Source: Lysobacterales bacterium
GTDB lineage: Bacteria > Pseudomonadota > Gammaproteobacteria > Xanthomonadales > Marinicellaceae
Assembly: GCA_026988115.1 (NCBI GenBank)
Contig: JALSLV010000016.1
Span: 62,001 to 126,000, forward strand
DNA: 64,000 nt
Direction: 5' to 3'
This document shows, piece after piece, positions 3,288 through 21,608 of the stretch. The position numbers were made by a program, and so were the translations under genes. The notes below the pieces were generated by a model, which was given only the letters and a program-made list of their open reading frames with translations, was not told where the DNA came from and made no database searches. Numbering within the stretch: position 1 is the stretch's first letter; the number at the start of each line of letters is the position of its first letter.

Positions 3288-4802
3288 TTATTCAAACACA
3301 GGCAATCCGCTTGGAACCGATGCTGGAACATCTGTTCTTAAATCAATGCTGGAGCGGTCGGTTACTGCATCCAGAAAATCCATCAATCGATCAATTTGAG
3401 TTTCAGTTAAATTCACGTTGCTAATATCAAGGTTTGACAATAAAGCATTGCGTGACAAAGTATCATTCATTACAGCAAAATCCAGTGCACTTAAGTCGCG
3501 TCGGTATGGCATAATGACTTGTGACTCATCGTAGTTTGCAAGAGCTTGGGCTGGATTTAAGTGATGCTTAATTACTGTTCTTAAATCATTATACGCTCCT
3601 GCATGACCCCATGGTCCCGTTAATAGAGCATTTCTTAGTGAAGGAACTTTAAATTTGAAACGATCATCCGTATTTCCAGTGACTCTTTCTCTTCCAAAAT
3701 CATCTAAGCCATCACGGAATCCTGGCAAGTTATCTCCTTTTCCTGGGCCAATTTGTGGCATGCCTACTGACTTAAACTCATTTGATGTTAAAAACTTACC
3801 ATTATGGCATTGTGAACAACCACCATCTCCATAAAAGACATTCATGCCTGCAATTTGATTAGCACTCATTGCTCCTGTGTCACCGCGCAAATATTTATCA
3901 AATGCAGAGTTATCTGCTCGCCAAACATCGCCCTCAAAAGCACCAATTGCATTGGCTATATGCACCATAGTTATATCACTGGCTGAATTAACATCAGGAT
4001 AAACGTCTTTAAACATCTCAACGTATTCACTTATCTCCTGAATTCTGCTTGCTAGTTGTGCCCACACGCCGCCTTCACCTGCCAAATTACCTGCAATTGT
4101 TGCATCCGCTATTGAGTTTTCACCTGCTTGTCCTGCCATTTCTGTCTGGGAAGTGACTGGGAACATTGCTTGGGCCGCTAAAGCATTATCTAAACCTAAA
4201 GGCAAATCATTGCCCGCTGGAGTAAAAAAACCACTTGGTTGAGTACTGTCTTCAACAACTCGCCCATCGTGAAACATAACATTAAAAACTTTTGCACCAA
4301 GATTAAATATTTGAGGTGCATTGCGTGGCACACGCTCATGAACGCCAGCCTCCATAAAACCCGTTGTTCTTGTCACACCAACTCCATCACCTCCTTCACC
4401 AATCGGTAATGAAAGACCATCGCCTGACCATGCAAAAGGATGGTGACAGGTTGCACAAGAGTCATTCTTGTTGCCACTGAGTATTTTGTCAAAAAATAAA
4501 ACTTTACCTAAAGCAACTTTATTGGCTGGTTGAATATCATAATCTTCATCTGTTACCGCATCAGGTAATTGATCTAAAGTGTTTTGACTAACTTGTACAG
4601 GAACATTTAATTGATTGGAAATATCCAAGACCGTTTCAAAATCAAAAAGTGGCTCCGCTTGGTTGGCTTGGGAGCGTTTAATTGTCTTGACTAAGGATTG
4701 TTTATAGACTTTATGCGCGCTTAAATCAACTACTTTTCTTTCAGCACTGACTGAAAAAGTCGCAGAAAAAGCAAACAGGGCTAATACTAGTTTTTGTTTC
4801 AT
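3288..4802 (-). CDS. Diheme cytochrome c peroxidase / MauG family protein
   Basis: Predicted periplasmic diheme enzyme. The family reduces hydrogen peroxide with electrons from small c-type cytochromes or performs MauG-like oxidations. A signal peptide ends near A20 (...FSVSA). Two heme-binding CxxCH motifs are present: C116-A-T-C119-H120 and C329-S-Q-C332-H333. The 504 aa are clearly longer than classical bacterial CcpA (about 330 aa), with extra sequence before the first heme and between the hemes. It stands as a single gene with no cytochrome partner nearby. The exact substrate cannot be assigned from sequence. Confidence 0.88.
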   Translation of the reverse strand: MKQKLVLALFAFSATFSVSAERKVVDLSAHKVYKQSLVKTIKRSQANQAEPLFDFETVLDISNQLNVPVQVSQNTLDQLPDAVTDEDYDIQPANKVALGKVLFFDKILSGNKNDSCATCHHPFAWSGDGLSLPIGEGGDGVGVTRTTGFMEAGVHERVPRNAPQIFNLGAKVFNVMFHDGRVVEDSTQPSGFFTPAGNDLPLGLDNALAAQAMFPVTSQTEMAGQAGENSIADATIAGNLAGEGGVWAQLASRIQEISEYVEMFKDVYPDVNSASDITMVHIANAIGAFEGDVWRADNSAFDKYLRGDTGAMSANQIAGMNVFYGDGGCSQCHNGKFLTSNEFKSVGMPQIGPGKGDNLPGFRDGLDDFGRERVTGNTDDRFKFKVPSLRNALLTGPWGHAGAYNDLRTVIKHHLNPAQALANYDESQVIMPYRRDLSALDFAVMNDTLSRNALLSNLDISNVNLTETQIDRLMDFLDAVTDRSSIDLRTDVPASVPSGLPVFE

Positions 4803-4892
4803 AATTTTCTCTCTATTTTAAAATAGAAACGATAATAGCATACGAAACTTTTAATAAAATAGAGAAACCTGAATCTAAATTACTGTTATCTT

Positions 4893-5321
4893 CTATTGCT
4901 CTGTTTCTATGTCTCTATAGCGTTGACAAATTGAGCGTTCATCAGGATTTTCTACTGCACTGGCAATATCGTGGACGAGTTGATTGAATTCATCAAAGGT
5001 GATGGTGGATAAAACTTTCCCTAACACCTTTTGATCCGTTTCTGCCATAATCTTTGTGCCATCCTGCAGACTAATTTCAATGCTTGCGGCATTGTAATCA
5101 CAATCCTCTGCATTATTTTGTTCGTACATTTCTTGGTCATCGGCAAACAATTCGTCGTAATAATCATTGAGTTCCTCATCAATGGACTCATCAATATCCT
5201 CTGATACATGCACTTCCCACGCGGGTTCTTCTTCGACCAAAGTAGCTGTAATCTGGTAACTCTCCACTTTCTTGATAAATTTTTCGGCTAATACTTTATG
5301 AAAAAATACAAACTCAAGCAT
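4893..5321 (-). CDS. Acidic protein of unknown function, coupled to the CtlX-like hydrolase
   Basis: I do not recognise this family. The 142-aa protein is soluble and strongly acidic, with a run rich in D/E around residues 40-70 (DIDESIDEELNDYYDELFADD), and has no signal peptide or membrane segment. Its ATG overlaps the stop of the upstream hydrolase by one base (TAATG at 5323-5319), so translation is probably coupled. That coupling suggests a shared process, perhaps amino-acid catabolism or regulation of the enzyme, but this is inference. Confidence 0.75.
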   Translation of the reverse strand: MLEFVFFHKVLAEKFIKKVESYQITATLVEEEPAWEVHVSEDIDESIDEELNDYYDELFADDQEMYEQNNAEDCDYNAASIEISLQDGTKIMAETDQKVLGKVLSTITFDEFNQLVHDIASAVENPDERSICQRYRDIETEQ

Positions 5322-6241
5322 TAAAATATCTCCCCTACCATGCAGCGCAGAGAACCGCCTGCTTTTTCTAATTCACTGACCTGCACCGAATGCAGGGTAA
5401 ACCCCCAAGATTCGAGTTTAGCTTTTTTCTCTTGAGTCAAAGTATCCAAAGCCGTTTGACTTAAAAACAAATCCGTTTCAGTTATGGTGATGCCATTGCC
5501 TGCAAATGCCAGTTTTTCTTCATCGCTTAAAAAAATTGTTTTGCCTTGGTAAAAATCGGCAATTGCCTTTGGCACCTCAGGATTGGCAAAAGAATCGGCA
5601 TGCAAAATACACGCCTTACCAGCCAAACACGCCAAAATTACATTGGTGTGGTATTCGCCTTGTTTCAAATCAAACTGAAACATTAAGTCCAAACCAAACA
5701 TATCATGCATTGCCTGAGCACCGGCATCATCAACTCGTTCAGTCATGCCACAAAAAGCAATATTACGCGCTCTATCAGGCACCAAAACACCAGTTAATTC
5801 AGCAACCGCTTCATCACGATTAATATGGTGTCGTTCATAACCCAGCATTTCATCAAAAAACATATTGATGTCTTTTCGCAGGGTTTCTTTTTGGCGGTTA
5901 GAATGCAACATTGCACCAACGATATATTTGTTGCCATGAGCGGTAGCAAATGCATTATTGGGAAAAACCGCATCGGGAGTTTCAGATGAACCAGGAAAAG
6001 TCATCACAGGAATACCACAGTCGGAAATTTTACGGGCTAAATTCATTTGCTGAACAATGGCCAAATCTGCATCGGTTTGCTGATCCATTTGCATGTAGAG
6101 GTTATCGCTTGCTGTTTGTTCATCCAAGCTAAAACCAACAGGCGAAACCATAAAAGCCGCCTTCATCGCTCCTGCTTGCTTTATTGGGTAATCTTTTTGT
6201 TTAACCGCTTGGGTAAAATCTTGTGCTGTTTTAACAATCAT
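5321..6241 (-). CDS. ctlX: CtlX-like citrulline/arginine-type amidohydrolase
   Basis: Member of the guanidino-group modifying (amidinotransferase-fold) superfamily that includes dimethylarginine dimethylaminohydrolase and the citrulline hydrolase CtlX. The 306 aa have the conserved substrate-binding region ETPDAVFPNN (87-96), a catalytic His in EYHTNV (H198) and a catalytic Cys near the C-terminus in GGSLRCMVGE (C300). The superfamily acts in the cytoplasm on arginine, citrulline or methylated arginine. The substrate here is inferred from family resemblance only. The downstream acidic gene starts on its stop codon. Confidence 0.82.
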   Translation of the reverse strand: MIVKTAQDFTQAVKQKDYPIKQAGAMKAAFMVSPVGFSLDEQTASDNLYMQMDQQTDADLAIVQQMNLARKISDCGIPVMTFPGSSETPDAVFPNNAFATAHGNKYIVGAMLHSNRQKETLRKDINMFFDEMLGYERHHINRDEAVAELTGVLVPDRARNIAFCGMTERVDDAGAQAMHDMFGLDLMFQFDLKQGEYHTNVILACLAGKACILHADSFANPEVPKAIADFYQGKTIFLSDEEKLAFAGNGITITETDLFLSQTALDTLTQEKKAKLESWGFTLHSVQVSELEKAGGSLRCMVGEIF

Positions 6242-6325
6242 GAGTTTTTTTTATTCTAATTGACTAACGCCATTATGTGATAATTTACGGCTTAGATAAA
6301 GCAAGTTAAGTAAAACTTTTTAAAG

Positions 6326-6802
6326 TTATTCTAAAAAATCAGAAGGCTTTGCCCAACTCCACGTAGCAGATTGCACTTTATAGATTTCATCTTCTAACAC
6401 AAAGTGAACATCAAACTTAATCATATCCGCTCGAATCGAAGTTAAAATACTGACTGATTTGATTGGTTTACCAGCCATTGCTGCGGTTATTTGCACCTCT
6501 GCATTGTTATCATTAGTCCAGTTTATGGCATTAATTGTTGACAACACATGCAAGGTTTTATGGCGCATTAACTGCAATTGTATTGCGCGTTTAATGTCTT
6601 TCAAACCTCTGCCGTGTTCATCACTATAGTTTTCACTCACGTACTCAATAATACGCCCAAACTTGCGTTCTTCAAAGCGACTTTCGAGTTCGGCAATAGA
6701 TTGCCTGAGTCTTTGTTCTTTTGTGAGTTGTGGTTCTTTTGTACAACTCATTAAGTTTATAATCAGAGCCACAAACAAAGCTATAAAAATATATTGCTTC
6801 AT
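6326..6802 (-). CDS. Small lipoprotein of unknown function
   Basis: 158 aa with a lipoprotein signal: a hydrophobic stretch (IFIALFVALIINLMS) followed by lipobox LMSC, so Cys20 would be lipidated. The mature part has a helical N-terminus (RQSIAELESRFEE) followed by an alternating beta-rich region, which would suit an NTF2-like fold. I do not recognise a named family. It lies downstream of icd on the same strand, separated by the palindromic element at 6848-6945. Confidence 0.75.
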   Translation of the reverse strand: MKQYIFIALFVALIINLMSCTKEPQLTKEQRLRQSIAELESRFEERKFGRIIEYVSENYSDEHGRGLKDIKRAIQLQLMRHKTLHVLSTINAINWTNDNNAEVQITAAMAGKPIKSVSILTSIRADMIKFDVHFVLEDEIYKVQSATWSWAKPSDFLE

Positions 6803-6847
6803 AAGATATGACGATATTAATTGCTTGTATCTTACATGAATTGGAGT

Positions 6848-6945
6848 AAAAAAACCGTAAGGAGGGCTTGCCCACCAAATTTAATACTCATTTATTATCG
6901 AGGTTTCGAAAACACTATTGGTGGGCAAGCCCTCCTTACAATTTT
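6848..6945. repeat. Palindromic element with perfect 21-bp arms, also terminator-like
   Basis: Arm GTAAGGAGGG...CCCACCA (6857-6877) is perfectly complementary to 6919-6939, around a 41-base spacer. T-runs flank it on both strands (6942-6947 on plus; the A-run 6848-6854 read on minus). It could therefore terminate icd transcription as well as being one copy of a dispersed repeat (compare 10022-10105). Its spacer shares the motif ATCGAGGTTTC with the spacer of that copy. Confidence 0.85.
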
Positions 6946-7053
6946 TTAAAACTTTCCGTGACATCAATCAATCTTACACATAAGGCTCACAGAAAAAAAC
7001 TCTGTGAGCCTCTGTGATTTCTCTGTGCAACTCTGTGTTACTTAAACCCAAAT

Positions 7054-9297
<2,244 letters not shown>

Positions 9298-9389
9298 TTA
9301 TCTCCCAGTTTGAGAATGACAATATTATAATGGATTTAGACTGAGTTTAACAGGGAATAAATCATAAGAAAGTGGCAAACTTTAATAGC

Positions 9390-9968
9390 TCAGTGCACCG
9401 CCGCTTTAAAAGGACATTGTTTGACAATATCGGCTTCGATCTGAAGCAATTGTTCGAGTCGTGCTGCGACCGTTTTTGGGTCGTAATATTGATGTGCTAA
9501 TGAAATAAACAACTCATAATGGCGGTACTCGGCAGCGGCTAATCGTTGGTAAAAATCTTTTATTTTTGGTTCGGTTAATGCTTCACCAACAATGCCAAAT
9601 CGCTCTGCTCCTCGTTTTTCAACAATACTAAACATCAACAACCTGTCAAGCAAGTAATGTTTTGGGTCTTTGCGCATGGCTCTCATAAAAGTACCAATAT
9701 AAAAATTAGTCTTATCTGGGATTTGTTGCAAACCCCGTTTAAGCATAATTTTAATCACTTCACGAAAATGTGCCATTTCTTCCATGGCTAAATCTATCAT
9801 TTCACGAACGATATCGGCTTTATCTGGGTAATGAACAACCATCGACATGGCTAAGGTGGAAGCTTTGCGTTCATTGGCAGCGTGGTCAATCAAGAACGCA
9901 TCAAAATCCGACATGACGGCTTTTATCCAGCGGGGATCGGTTTTACATTTCAAGTCGTATGAATACAT
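9390..9968 (-). CDS. miaE: tRNA-(ms2io6A)-hydroxylase MiaE
   Basis: Diiron, oxygen-dependent hydroxylase that converts ms2i6A37 to ms2io6A37 in tRNAs reading UNN codons. The 192 aa form a four-helix ferritin-like bundle with ligands visible as E33 (NERKA), E64-xx-H67 (EEMAH), E117 (VEKRGAE) and E147-xx-H150 (EYRHYE). The substrate is made by MiaA and MiaB, which are not in this window. It stands upstream of a palindromic repeat and the sdh operon, with icd downstream on the same strand. Confidence 0.93.
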   Translation of the reverse strand: MYSYDLKCKTDPRWIKAVMSDFDAFLIDHAANERKASTLAMSMVVHYPDKADIVREMIDLAMEEMAHFREVIKIMLKRGLQQIPDKTNFYIGTFMRAMRKDPKHYLLDRLLMFSIVEKRGAERFGIVGEALTEPKIKDFYQRLAAAEYRHYELFISLAHQYYDPKTVAARLEQLLQIEADIVKQCPFKAAVH

Positions 9969-10021
9969 TTATTCTCTAAATAGTTTTATAAGTTTAATTT
10001 ACCGAACAAGGATAGTCTTTT

Positions 10022-10105
10022 TGTAAGGTGGGCTTACCCACCATGGATAATAATCGAAGCCTCATAATTTCACTAAACATCTTTGGTGGGTAAACCCACC
10101 TTACA
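10022..10105. repeat. Palindromic repeat, second copy of the GTAAGG...CCCACC family
   Basis: Arm 10022-10043 (TGTAAGGTGGGCTTACCCAC...) is complementary to 10084-10105 with one mismatch, around a 40-base spacer. It belongs to the same family as 6857-6939. Its right arm overlaps the last bases of sdhB, so the sdhB stop codon (10103-10101) lies inside the repeat. Confidence 0.85.
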
Positions 10106-10883
10106 GTGCGTGACGTTCGGCGATAAGTTTCTTAATCTCTGCAATGGCTTTTCCTGGGTTTAAGCCTTTAGGACAGGTATTGGTACAGCTCATAATGGTA
10201 TGACACCTGAATACCTTAAATGGATCTTCTAAGTCTTCTAAACGTTCACCTGTATACTCATCGCGTGAATCGGCTAAAAAACGGTAGGACTGCAATAAAA
10301 CAGCAGGTCCTAAGTATCTATCACCATTCCACCAGTAACTTGGGCACGATGTTTGGCAACACGCACATAAAATACATTCATACAATCCATCGAGCTTTTC
10401 ACGGTCTTCTATTGACTGTAAACGCTCAGCATCAGGCAAAGGTACTGAATCCGTTTGCATCCACGGTTGCACCGATGCGTATTGTGCGTAAAAATGGGTT
10501 AAATCAGGCACTAAATCTTTGATAACATCCATATGTGGCAATGGGTAAATCGCAACGGTGTCGTTGCAATCTTTCATTGATTTGGTACACGCCAAAGTGT
10601 TGGTGCCATCAATATTCATTGCACAACTGCCACAAATGCCTTCTCGGCAAGAACGGCGGTAAGTAAGCGTGGTATCAATTTCATTTTTAACCTTATTTAA
10701 GGCATCAAGCACCATTGGCCCGCAATTATCCATATCAATTTCGTAGGTATCGGTACGTGGATTTTCACCGGTATCAGGATCCCAACGGTAAACTTTTAGT
10801 TTGCGAATATTGGTTGCACCCTCAGCTTTAACGTATTTGCCTTTGGTGATTTTTGAGTTTTTTGGTAAGCTAAATTCTGCCAT
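10101..10883 (-). CDS. sdhB: Succinate dehydrogenase iron-sulfur subunit SdhB
   Basis: Electron-transfer subunit of complex II, carrying electrons from SdhA to the membrane quinone site. The [2Fe-2S] ligands are in CREGICGSC plus a later Cys in NTLAC, the [4Fe-4S] ligands in [12 protein letters not shown], and the [3Fe-4S] ligands in CHTIMSC...CP. I chose ATG 10883 (260 aa, starting MAEFSLPKN) over an upstream in-frame ATG at 10925. It sits one base after the sdhA stop with an AAAGGGTG ribosome-binding site, and the extra 14 residues are not family-like. It is the last gene of sdhCDAB. Confidence 0.95.
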
Positions 10884-17641: not shown

Positions 17642-17743
17642 TTATTGCGGGTATTTTAACAAAGATTTGAGATAATGCTATTAGGGATTTTTGATTGTTA
17701 TAATAGATTGAATGAATTAACTACTTTCTTCACTCTGTGCACT

Positions 17744-17829
17744 TGTAGGATGGGCCGCGCCCATCGGTTTAAAACTCAACAATCATCGAAACCAACTGAA
17801 ACACTGCCGATGGGCATGGCTCCTCCTAC
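17744..17829 (+). repeat. Palindromic repeat GTAGGATGGGC family, copy 1 (left flank of HNH-KAP cassette)
   Basis: TGTAGGATGGGCCGCGCCCA (from 17744) pairs with CCGATGGGCATGGC...CCTAC ending at 17829. The spacer reads GGTTTAAAACTC...ACACTG. The same element in the same orientation occurs at 19996-20084. Its spacer motif ATCATCGAAACC resembles ATAATCGAAGCC in the 10022 repeat, so the two families may be related. Confidence 0.85.
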
Positions 17830-17836
17830 TACTGAG

Positions 17837-19228
17837 TTAACTTTTCTCTCCCAATTGGAATTTTCTTATAACAAATTCAATATAGCCAATTATAGGTAGA
17901 CTTCTTCCTAAATGACCTGTAAACATCGTACCTATAGCACTTTTCCACTGCTCTTCTTCATTATCTTCCAAATATCCAAATTCAGATTTGTTTTTATTTG
18001 ATTCTTTGTATATAGCATACGCAATTTTATCGGAATTTTCACAATATGAGTCTATATTTTCTTTTCCAATTTTAAATAGCTTCTTTTTTCCTAATAGTTT
18101 ATTTAACTCCACAGCATCAATAACACCATGGTTAATATCTGCAACCAAATCAGGTTCAAAACAGAATAAATATATTCCAAAAATAATTAGCATCATTATG
18201 CCAAAATCCATCGATTCTGACAGTTCATTATTTGAGACGACTTGGTAAATATTAAGGTATTTTATAAACGTTTCTACTTGCCTTAAAGTTAGCTTATTTA
18301 CTATTATGATTTTTTCAAAAAAATCAATGTAATCTTCTTGAATCAAAGTTGTAGTATTTAATTCACTACCTCTCAACAACCTTTTAAAGTGACTACAAGA
18401 TACGCATTTTTGATTTGACATTGGTATAGTTTGTGGCAAACCAAATGTAAAACCTAAAAACTTATCTAGATAGCTTTGTGAATTAACAGAAGCGCCATAA
18501 CAATGATTAATTGAAGACCTAATTTGATTCAAATTTGCAACTAAGACAAATTTTAAATTAACAATGTCAAATATATGCTTTATATTCTCTAACATTTTTA
18601 TTGCAAAGTTTGGTCTACATCTATCCAGTTCATCAATAAATATAATGACAGGATTTTCTTTTGTTATTTTTTCCATTACTTCAACTAAAGCTTTAATTTT
18701 TTCCTCTGATTTCTCATGAATGCTTAAGATTCTGTCAATTGATTTATCAAAAGCCTTTTTAATTTCATCGTCAAAATCATTGGCAATATCGACTGAATCT
18801 TGTCTTAACACCCAATTTACCCCACCTTTTAGAATTGTCTTCGTTCCAAATTTCAGAACTGACATTGCTTTTTTTCTTAAATCTTTTTTTTCCTTAATGT
18901 CAGGAAATGCATTAATTAATGCAGAAAGAATTGTCATTAATGGTTCATCTGCATGATCGGCTTTATAAGCATCAATATAAACCAAGCTATAAATTTTGTT
19001 TTCAGACTGTCTTTGTTGCTCACCAACCTCTTCTTTAGGTTTTTGTCCTTCTTTAAAAAGATTTATTAATTTATAAGTAAATTCTGTTTTTCCAGTTCCC
19101 CAATCCCCATCAATAACCAATGGCGATACATCAATTGTTGATTTCAGTAATTTAATTATTTTTTCTGCAATCTCCTTTCTATTAAATTCATCATATTCTT
19201 CAAATGTTATTTCTTGATTAATGGTCAT
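17837..19228 (-). CDS. KAP-family P-loop NTPase, partner of the HNH nuclease
   Basis: 463-aa ATPase of the KAP branch of STAND-like P-loop NTPases. Walker A is GDWGTGKT (41-48). Walker B is VIIFIDELDRC (194-204) with the family-typical ELDRCRPNFAI continuation, followed by a sensor strand FVLVANLNQI (227-236). A Cys pair CVSC (275-278) and one hydrophobic segment (341-358) follow; the usual two membrane helices between Walker A and B are not evident. Its ATG overlaps the nuclease stop (ATGA, 19228-19225) and has a strong AAGGAGG site. The region is very A/T-rich: rows 18001-18060 and 18541-18600 have 15 and 11 G+C, against 29 in row 17161-17220 of trxB. KAP ATPases occur in phage-defence systems such as Qat. 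Confidence 0.85.
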   Translation of the reverse strand: MTINQEITFEEYDEFNRKEIAEKIIKLLKSTIDVSPLVIDGDWGTGKTEFTYKLINLFKEGQKPKEEVGEQQRQSENKIYSLVYIDAYKADHADEPLMTILSALINAFPDIKEKKDLRKKAMSVLKFGTKTILKGGVNWVLRQDSVDIANDFDDEIKKAFDKSIDRILSIHEKSEEKIKALVEVMEKITKENPVIIFIDELDRCRPNFAIKMLENIKHIFDIVNLKFVLVANLNQIRSSINHCYGASVNSQSYLDKFLGFTFGLPQTIPMSNQKCVSCSHFKRLLRGSELNTTTLIQEDYIDFFEKIIIVNKLTLRQVETFIKYLNIYQVVSNNELSESMDFGIMMLIIFGIYLFCFEPDLVADINHGVIDAVELNKLLGKKKLFKIGKENIDSYCENSDKIAYAIYKESNKNKSEFGYLEDNEEEQWKSAIGTMFTGHLGRSLPIIGYIEFVIRKFQLGEKS

Positions 19229-19881
19229 TGCTGCCTCCTTATTAAATCACTTAATTGGTTAGTTGATAATAATGGCTTACTTTCATGCAACATTCGATGA
19301 CAGTTTGAATAAACCAATACCATATCTTTTATTTTAGTTTTTGTAATGCCATTTAATTCACTTACTGGAATTAAATGATGAGCTTCAATAAAACCATTAC
19401 CAATATCTCCATAAAAATCCAAAAAAGAGAAATTGCATGCCATGCACTTTAATTCGCCTGTTTCCTTAATTACTTTTTTCTTTAATGACTTACCAATACT
19501 TGAATCTCTTTCTAACCTTCTATGTAATTTGTATATTTTTCTACCTTCAGGGTTATTAGACTCAATTATCTCAGTGTGTAAATAGTTGGATTTTAGTTCT
19601 GCTCCTAAATCTATAATTTCAAAGCCTAGTCTAATCAAAAAATCCTTAGCTTGAATTACATTAAAATATGATGGTAGACATTCAGATTTGTTTGCATATA
19701 CATTAGAAGTTGAAAGAGTATATTTTGGTGGGTAAAGCTTCTCATTGAATTTTAGAAAGTACCTTGTTGAGTTTCTCCTTTTTGGAATACTGTTCTTATC
19801 AATAAATTGAATTGCTTGAACAACATGATTAAAAGATATTCCATTAGGAATACCCTTATATGGTTTTGAACTATTATTCAC
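19225..19881 (-). CDS. HNH endonuclease with a possible McrA-like N-terminal domain
   Basis: 218-aa predicted DNA nuclease. The C-terminal HNH fold shows C146-M-A-C149, the catalytic GFIEAHHLIP (H168-H169), and YSNCHRMLH (N193, H195, H199), which is the zinc-binding McrA-type arrangement. The N-terminal half contains YPPKYTLSTSN (50-60) followed by an FLIRLGFEI segment, a pattern I associate with the N-terminal domain of ScoMcrA-like restriction enzymes. The start is GTG 19881 with AGG six bases upstream; no earlier ATG exists. Translation is coupled to the KAP ATPase. A restriction or anti-phage role is inferred from domain pairing. Confidence 0.83.
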   Translation of the reverse strand: MNNSSKPYKGIPNGISFNHVVQAIQFIDKNSIPKRRNSTRYFLKFNEKLYPPKYTLSTSNVYANKSECLPSYFNVIQAKDFLIRLGFEIIDLGAELKSNYLHTEIIESNNPEGRKIYKLHRRLERDSSIGKSLKKKVIKETGELKCMACNFSFLDFYGDIGNGFIEAHHLIPVSELNGITKTKIKDMVLVYSNCHRMLHESKPLLSTNQLSDLIRRQQ

Positions 19882-19995
19882 CTTATACCTAAAATTTAAT
19901 GAGATTACGGGTTAATTATACAATACATTTCTAGTTTTTTAAAATCTCCTTATAACTCAGCACCTCTTACATCAAGCTCCTTGTTGCTTAGCACT

Positions 19996-20084
19996 TGTAG
20001 GATGGGCCGCGCGCCCATCAAGTTAGAATTTAATAACCACCAGAGCCATCCGTTATACTGCCGATGGGCGTGGCCCATCCGACA
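19996..20084 (+). repeat. Palindromic repeat GTAGGATGGGC family, copy 2 (right flank of HNH-KAP cassette)
   Basis: TGTAGGATGGGCCGCGCGCC (from 19996) pairs with CCGATGGGCGTGGCCCATCC near 20061-20080. It is in the same orientation as 17744-17829 and shares the end of the spacer (ATACTGCCGATGGGC against ACACTGCCGATGGGC). The two copies are direct repeats about 2.25 kb apart. Confidence 0.85.
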
Positions 20085-20094
20085 GAGTGACCTT

Positions 20095-20748
20095 TCACTC
20101 TTCGAGCAATTTTATACCACTGGTATCAATTTCAACTGGCGGTGTTGGTTTTTTCTCAACCATAGTCGCACCCACTTCATCTAAAGATAAGTCTGAAATA
20201 TCGAGATGAGGTTCTGGGAGTTCATGAGGTTCATCAAAGATGGCTCCGATTTCGTCTAAGCTAATGCCTGAGACGTCAAATTCAGGTTCTGGCACTTCTT
20301 CTTTTTCAACAATTTCTCTATCTTCTTCATCTATTGTAAATGAGGATGTATCAATATTAACAGGTTCTATAGGCTTAGGATTGGCAAATTGTGCCCCCAC
20401 TTCATCCAATGAAAATTGTGAAGTTGGAATGTTGGCAACTATTGGAGCTGGAGGCGAAACTAATATCACCCCAGGGGCGGACATAGTGAGTTCGGCTTTA
20501 AAGTTTTCGTTCACCTTTTTAACTAAAGAAACTTTTAAACCGGCTTTTTTTAATGCTTGCCGAAAATTATTGGCTTTCTCGAGTGTTTGCTCTTTTTTTA
20601 ATACCCGTGGATTGCCATCAAAGAACCTTTCTGCCTTTTCAATTGGCAATTTAAAGACTTTTGAAAAATGCAGCACGGCTCGATTTTTATCCAGCTCTCT
20701 GGCAAACTTTCCTTTAAAGACCACATCAAATAAATTTTCTGCACTCAT
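20095..20748 (-). CDS. Protein of unknown function with SLDE[VI]GA repeats
   Basis: 217 aa, no named family recognised. Residues 5-76 form a compact domain (FDVVFKGKF...AERFFDGNPRVLKK...FRQALKKAGLKVSLV). I associate this pattern with a small N-terminal domain found on various proteobacterial envelope proteins. The rest is a low-complexity, Pro- and acid-rich tail with three copies of SLDEVGA or SLDEIGA (113-119, 163-169, 188-194), each spaced by DTS/DIS-type strands. ATG 20748 overlaps the acyltransferase stop (ATGA), which decides the start over an upstream ATG at 20790. Confidence 0.7.
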   Translation of the reverse strand: MSAENLFDVVFKGKFARELDKNRAVLHFSKVFKLPIEKAERFFDGNPRVLKKEQTLEKANNFRQALKKAGLKVSLVKKVNENFKAELTMSAPGVILVSPPAPIVANIPTSQFSLDEVGAQFANPKPIEPVNIDTSSFTIDEEDREIVEKEEVPEPEFDVSGISLDEIGAIFDEPHELPEPHLDISDLSLDEVGATMVEKKPTPPVEIDTSGIKLLEE

Positions 20749-21608
20749 GATAACCTCACGTCTTGTTTCTTCCACAAACCATTTAACCACTGCTGTAATT
20801 CTTTTCTAAATTCCATATCAGTAATATAATTTTTGTTCTTTAAGTGATTTGGGATTTTAATTTTGTCCACTATGATTTCGACTTTATCGTATTTACCGCA
20901 CAAATATTCCCATGCCGAAGGGGGTTTTGGTGAATATTTTAAACTGGTTTGTAGTAAATAATTCATTTGATTTCCCATAGAACCCAAGACAAATCCGATA
21001 CCTCCCGATTTGGGCTTTAGCAAGTGTTTGTATTTTGAATGTTGTTTTTTATGCTTTTGCTTTGAAAAACGCGTGCCTTCAATAAAGTTTATTACTGAAA
21101 TTGGGTAATCTTTAAACTTATCGCACGCTTTTTTGGTTGCTTCTAAATCCTTGCCTTTCATATGGGGCTTTTTTGCCAAATAACTAGCAGAAAAACGCCG
21201 CATAAAAGGAAAATCAAGCGCCCACCATGCCACACCCAAAAATGGTACATAGATAAGTTCGTGTTTTAGGAAAAATTTTAAAAAGGGGATTTTTTTGTAA
21301 AATACATTTTGCAGTATAGGAATATCCGCAGCAGCTGCATGATTACTAATAACCAAATACCAATCGTTAGATTCTAACTCTTCCATGCCCTTTAAATCGA
21401 TTTTATTGCCATGAAATAATAAATGAATTTTTGTATTTAACCAAATCCAGTTATTGGCAATCCAAACAAGCATTTTTGAAATCGGTTTTCTTATTGCTGG
21501 AATAGGCAGGATGAATTTAAGCAAGGAAATTAGCACTAAAATTGGCACCCAAAATAGCGTATTGGCTATAACGACCAGAAGTATTATTGTGCCTTTGACT
21601 GCAGACAT
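20745..21608 (-). CDS. Lysophospholipid acyltransferase, YihG-like
   Basis: 287-aa membrane-associated acyltransferase of the PlsC superfamily, transferring acyl groups to lysophosphatidic acid or a related lipid. The catalytic HX4D is in SNHAAAADI, and the glycerophosphate-binding motif is NFIEGTRFS. Two hydrophobic stretches lie at the N-terminus (IILLVVIANTLFWVPILVLISLL). The length and the EGTRFS motif favour YihG over PlsC itself. It is the first gene of a two-gene operon with the SLDE-repeat protein. Confidence 0.88.
   Translation of the reverse strand: MSAVKGTIILLVVIANTLFWVPILVLISLLKFILPIPAIRKPISKMLVWIANNWIWLNTKIHLLFHGNKIDLKGMEELESNDWYLVISNHAAAADIPILQNVFYKKIPFLKFFLKHELIYVPFLGVAWWALDFPFMRRFSASYLAKKPHMKGKDLEATKKACDKFKDYPISVINFIEGTRFSKQKHKKQHSKYKHLLKPKSGGIGFVLGSMGNQMNYLLQTSLKYSPKPPSAWEYLCGKYDKVEIIVDKIKIPNHLKNKNYITDMEFRKELQQWLNGLWKKQDVRLS

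Follow-up and report, generated by a model that had tools for sequence, protein, structure and literature searches.

Pairing of an ATPase with a nuclease is a common design in defence, and several described systems resemble one or the other of the two genes analysed here. P-loop ATPases with a core related to that of our KAP protein are QatA of qatABCD, PifA, and RdrA of RADAR; of these, QatA is a DNA-binding protein that assembles into heptamers or octamers (PMC13279940). The PADLOC collection contains PDC-S20, a one-gene candidate for which we found no described mechanism, and our literature search returned no paper on PDC-S20 or on KAP genes in hsd operons and no phage assay of PDC-S20. Among the McrA-like nucleases, ScoMcrA is composed of a head, a sulfur-binding, an SRA and an HNH domain, and in EcoKMcrA four cysteines form a zinc site. 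Septu comprises an ATPase gene beside an HNH gene. Further, PrrC, RloF and TgvAB are embedded in type I restriction-modification (R-M) operons. PrrC is encoded in the hsd region, and one rloC is located next to a relic of hsdR (PMC2610378). For RloF the position is between hsdR and hsdS, and TgvAB resides inside a type I R-M cluster but does not require HsdR activity for protection (PMC11411939).

In the window, by which we mean the whole analysed stretch of 64,000 nucleotides from a Lysobacterales bacterium, an HNH gene is followed by a gene for a KAP P-loop NTPase. The KAP protein matches the PDC-S20 profile (PDLC04956) over its full length with 494 bits (E 1.5e-148, residues 3-458 of 463), but instead of being a one-gene unit it follows the HNH gene. 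In a PADLOC scan of the 55 window proteins it was the sole match at 1e-10, and neither a Septu model nor any other PADLOC model was matched in the window at this level. Its matches to the PADLOC QatA and PifA models are weak, and no qatBCD or rdrB genes are located beside it. Since it reaches 40 bits against an NCBIfam cut-off of 600 bits for QatA, we exclude that it is a QatA protein. The HNH protein has a head domain like that of ScoMcrA and an HNH domain like that of EcoKMcrA, but it consists of these two only and is too short for the sulfur-binding and SRA domains; it also differs from both nucleases by a tyrosine in place of one zinc-site cysteine. Like PrrC, RloF and TgvAB, KAP homologues are found inside type I R-M operons, namely in the gap between hsdS and hsdR. 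However, no kinship in sequence or domains between these proteins and KAP was seen, and the window copy is outside such an operon. The analogy to Septu is a loose one; the ATPase in the window is of the KAP type and not of the Septu type.

Layout of the locus and insertion at a REP-marked site

A sequence-only reading of this DNA had described an HNH and a KAP open reading frame overlapping by four bases, a strong ribosome-binding site of the KAP gene and an A/T-rich region, and each of these features was confirmed (Table 1). On the minus strand the HNH gene comes first and the KAP gene is located downstream. The sequence AAGGAGG, a Shine-Dalgarno motif, is present a few bases 5' of the KAP ATG, i.e. 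the ribosome-binding site is internal to the gene pair. The G+C content of the island is 28-29% versus 39-40% in both flanks. The ATGA overlap probably reflects co-translation of KAP and HNH rather than their participation in one machine. In a promoter scan, sites of the type TTTAAA-17-TATAAT were no commoner than in shuffled sequences, and thus the promoter upstream of the HNH gene is a weak candidate.

Table 1. Features of the HNH-KAP locus (positions in the window; residues are those of the respective protein).
Feature	Position	Strand	Description or basis
HNH gene	19225-19881	-	218 aa, GTG start; ScoMcrA-type head domain and McrA-like HNH nuclease domain
Head domain ('YPPK') at the N-terminus, residues about 11-91	19609-19851	-	profile matches ScoMcrA 4-93
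HNH nuclease domain, residues about 112-200	19282-19548	-	Pfam HNH, homologue alignment
Codon 191 TAT (Tyr), second C-x2-C pair of zinc site	19309-19311	-	homologue alignment
KAP P-loop NTPase gene	17837-19228	-	463 aa, ATG start; PADLOC candidate family PDC-S20
Walker A GDWGTGKT, residues 41-48	19085-19108	-	no variation at G44, G46, K47 among 47 homologues
Walker B region FIDELDRC, residues 195-204	18617-18646	-	D199-C204 invariant in 47 homologues
ATGA overlap, HNH stop / KAP start, four bases	19225-19228	-	read in sequence
Possible promoter TTTAAA-17-TATAAT	19915-19943	-	just upstream of HNH gene; consensus match only
Left boundary of the island: REP-like palindrome doublet	17739-17834	.	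repeat search
Right boundary of the island: REP-like palindrome doublet	19991-20090	.	repeat search
Segment of ~2.3 kb missing from relative G371	17766-20073	.	flanks 90-93% identical DNA

The island is bounded by REP-like palindrome doublets, and sequences related to them are present at ten places in the host genome. The near relative G371, which belongs to the same genus, encodes a TrxB and an acyltransferase with 99% and 97% protein identity, respectively, to those of the window. Its alignment to the window runs to position 17765 and resumes at 20074, with a single degenerate REP between. Because this relative lacks the segment and carries the single degenerate REP in its place, the HNH-KAP pair is a lineage-specific insertion at a REP-marked site. 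The mobility that had been proposed from the sequence is supported by the absence of the island from G371. In three other genomes of the genus, trxB and the L12-like gene of this region are also close together without the HNH-KAP pair, and whole-genome searches revealed PDC-S20 in one of ten other genomes of the genus, as a distant member. Our comparisons suggest that the intergenic site by the L12-like gene is a variable spot. The pair may have entered through REP recombination or with the help of a RAYT enzyme. As to movement driven by a RAYT, the host genome has eight Y1_Tnp matches, and the REP motif was absent from the stretches fetched around the Y1 transposase genes of the host.

The KAP protein and the contexts of its family

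With Pfam KAP_NTPase the KAP protein scores 158 bits (E 3.6e-46), and with Pfam HNH the HNH protein scores 24.7 bits at a cut-off of 21.4. These scores exclude chance, and the motifs of both proteins are as the initial reading had given them. The IDELDRC sequence of KAP is at residues 198-204. A recognisable toxin domain was not found in the KAP protein. Its AlphaFold model is good (pLDDT 86.5), and the RdrA rings of RADAR came out as its best fold matches in the PDB (E 9e-6, TM about 0.4); PDB sequence searches yielded weak AAA+ matches only. Based on the fold match to the RdrA rings, and on the DNA binding and the heptamers or octamers of QatA, it is reasonable to infer that KAP could be a nucleic-acid-loading ring.

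The genomic contexts of the homologues were informative. HsdM or HsdR is encoded within ~6 kb of the KAP gene in 18 of the 40 best matches from host-genome contigs, while the random-gene expectation for such proximity is ~1%, an estimate of our own which uses the three HsdR_N matches in the 3.5 Mb host genome. More distant homologues are located by type I R-M genes in 8 of 40 cases. The usual order in the R-M-linked loci is hsdM, hsdS, KAP, hsdR on one strand, and the gap between hsdS and hsdR sometimes also contains RhuM, Abi_2 or YhcG-type genes beside KAP. On viral contigs, a P2-type integrase is encoded within 400 nt of the KAP gene in 24 of 71 near homologues, and other copies adjoin the antiterminator Q in lambdoid prophages. 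A linked type I system was found for none of the prophage copies (0/71). In Marinicella sediminis, the neighbours of the KAP homologue are a resolvase and a gene that weakly matches TnsA. The homologues in genome contigs were found with an alignment as query, and the KAP protein alone as query found none; a search in E. coli with one prophage KAP gene also found nothing.

The family is therefore encountered as single-gene cargo on mobile and defence elements, i.e. in type I R-M operons and in P2 and lambdoid prophages. This concentration of the homologues at prophage cargo sites and within type I R-M operons, together with the PDC-S20 match of KAP itself, speaks for the defence role which the sequence-only reading had proposed. 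In the KAP tree the prophage copies group together and the window copy is placed in no supported subgroup. Since its placement is not supported, we do not claim that the window KAP descended from a copy that resided within a type I R-M operon.

In five of the loci (L032, L035, L043, L048 and L066, around 4700-10700) the PDC-S20 KAP gene is located exactly between hsdS and hsdR, and a gene for a YgjP-like metallopeptidase is present after hsdR.

The McrA-like HNH protein and its zinc site

The head domain of the HNH protein matches residues 4-93 of ScoMcrA (5zmm) at 1.7e-7 in a profile comparison. EcoKMcrA is matched by phmmer at 1.8e-4 and is also the best fold match of the HNH model (E 3.8e-3, prob 0.98); this model has a moderate quality, with a pLDDT of 72.8, and PDB matches below 1e-3 were not found with it. 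In the HNH domain, C146 and C149 are present and the catalytic residues H168-H169, N193, H195 and H199 are intact. Thus, the protein has the McrA-like HNH domain expected of a type IV nuclease, and the ScoMcrA-type head domain, whose role is uncertain, is the only candidate module for recognition of modified DNA.

The zinc site, however, does not have its four cysteines. Position 191 is Cys in 95 of 96 HNH relatives with the motif and Tyr in the window. This exchange may reduce the HNH activity; alternatively, a sequencing error may account for the base. Tyr191 may even leave the HNH protein inactive, and then one functional module would remain in the island. The same Cys-to-Tyr change is present in the HNH protein of locus L299, which has near-identical siblings without it. 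The HNH homologue from the same order (L341) retains the complete set of four cysteines.

The head domain is common to a protein of the Thermococcus plasmid pTBMP1, to a genome of the same order and to HNH proteins of P4 satellites. The complete architecture of head and HNH domain occurs without KAP in P4-like satellites and in the same-order genome. Further, the HNH module is joined to many different N-terminal parts among the homologues, and one HNH relative adjoins dnd genes. The relatives in viral contigs were found with an alignment as query, and the HNH protein alone found none. In the loci L299, L302, L303 and L307 (3992-4642), the head-HNH protein is single-gene cargo located close to the gene for the primase of a P4-like satellite. 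In Thermococcus barophilus pTBMP1 (L247:2995-4245) the head domain is combined not with HNH but with DUF7662 and a C-terminal part that has no annotation, and the operon of this archaeal plasmid also contains a gene whose annotation reads type I restriction endonuclease.

Pairing of the two genes and possible explanations

The sequence-only reading had proposed a two-gene HNH-KAP system, to be checked by the co-occurrence of homologues and to be doubted if the two genes proved rarely adjacent. This is what we observed across both the KAP and the HNH loci, and the proposal is not supported. An adjacent HNH gene of the window's family, searched with a profile of the HNH module, was found at none of 211 KAP loci with 184 distinct KAP proteins, part of the loci (those from the genome search) carrying ~1.4 kb flanks and the genome collections containing one genome per species. 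At one of the 211 loci such an HNH gene is present at a distance of 2.9 kb, not adjacent. Conversely, no KAP homologue was detected in 80 viral HNH loci with flanks of up to 4 kb, and there is no KAP within 11 kb at the closest full-length HNH relative, a protein from the same order with 42% identity. The HNH-KAP pairing is unique to the window among the loci examined.

Based on these observations, we consider it likely that the locus is a REP-bounded insertion which stacks two anti-phage candidates that occur independently elsewhere. Two independent modules are preferred because there is no recurrent adjacency and each of the families has its own contexts. Both modules are of a known kind. 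KAP would be a PDC-S20 NTPase, whose family travels as defence cargo. Judging by the solitary copies in prophages and by an ATPase core resembling those of RdrA and QatA, it probably forms an ATP-dependent ring, senses infection and acts without a dedicated partner gene. The HNH protein would be a McrA-like type IV restriction nuclease in which the ScoMcrA-type head domain probably serves for recognition and the HNH domain would cleave modified DNA of phages; with one zinc ligand lost, this putatively protective nuclease has perhaps been weakened. That the two genes are stacked is probably a coincidence, and the pair is unlikely to be a new machine.

A true two-gene system, with the KAP ATPase as a sensor of infection that gates the HNH nuclease, would fit the ATGA overlap, the strong internal ribosome-binding site, the insertion of both genes as one unit and the frequent use of ATPase-nuclease pairs in defence. 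We nevertheless judge it quite improbable in view of the missing adjacency at the KAP and viral HNH loci, the closest full-length HNH relative without KAP, the solitary KAP homologues of prophages and the zinc site lacking one ligand. The recurrent position of KAP between hsdS and hsdR, with PrrC, RloF and TgvAB as precedents within hsd regions or type I R-M clusters, brings up another explanation, namely that KAP is a PrrC-like restriction guard which a type I R-M enzyme normally keeps silent and which is freed when anti-restriction proteins of a phage block this enzyme. At the present locus KAP would then act in trans with a type I enzyme encoded elsewhere in the genome, for which the three HsdR_N matches of the host could account, or it would guard the McrA-like HNH protein. 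However, embedding need not mean dependence, as TgvAB protects without HsdR activity (PMC11411939), and the unlinked prophage copies and the lack of a recognisable toxin domain also argue against a guard, as does the location of the window copy. We regard such a guard as unlikely, and its action in trans or on the HNH protein here as similarly doubtful. Finally, one or both genes could be passengers of a decaying island that are no longer functional. Tyr at the zinc-ligand position and the repeat-bounded location missing from relatives would be in line with decay, but both frames are open and of full length, with intact motifs in KAP and intact catalytic residues in HNH, so that we give this explanation a low probability.

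The wider interest of the locus lies in the PDC-S20 KAP family, which is repeatedly found in the hsdS-hsdR gap and at standard prophage cargo sites. These contexts are independent support for an anti-phage role of the candidate PDC-S20, and the type I R-M position makes restriction dependence directly testable. The window also shows how two-gene defence cargo can enter a REP-marked intergenic site.

The L12-like gene next to the island (20095-20790) encodes a protein with a weak match, below cut-off, to the C-terminal part of ribosomal L12 and with repeated 'SLDEVGA' motifs. It is conserved in the genus, with diverging repeat content. Beyond this gene the gene order varies among genomes of the genus, for example in G374 (L236:1600-8301) and G372 (L235), and in G374 a REP-like palindrome is present at the break in gene order.
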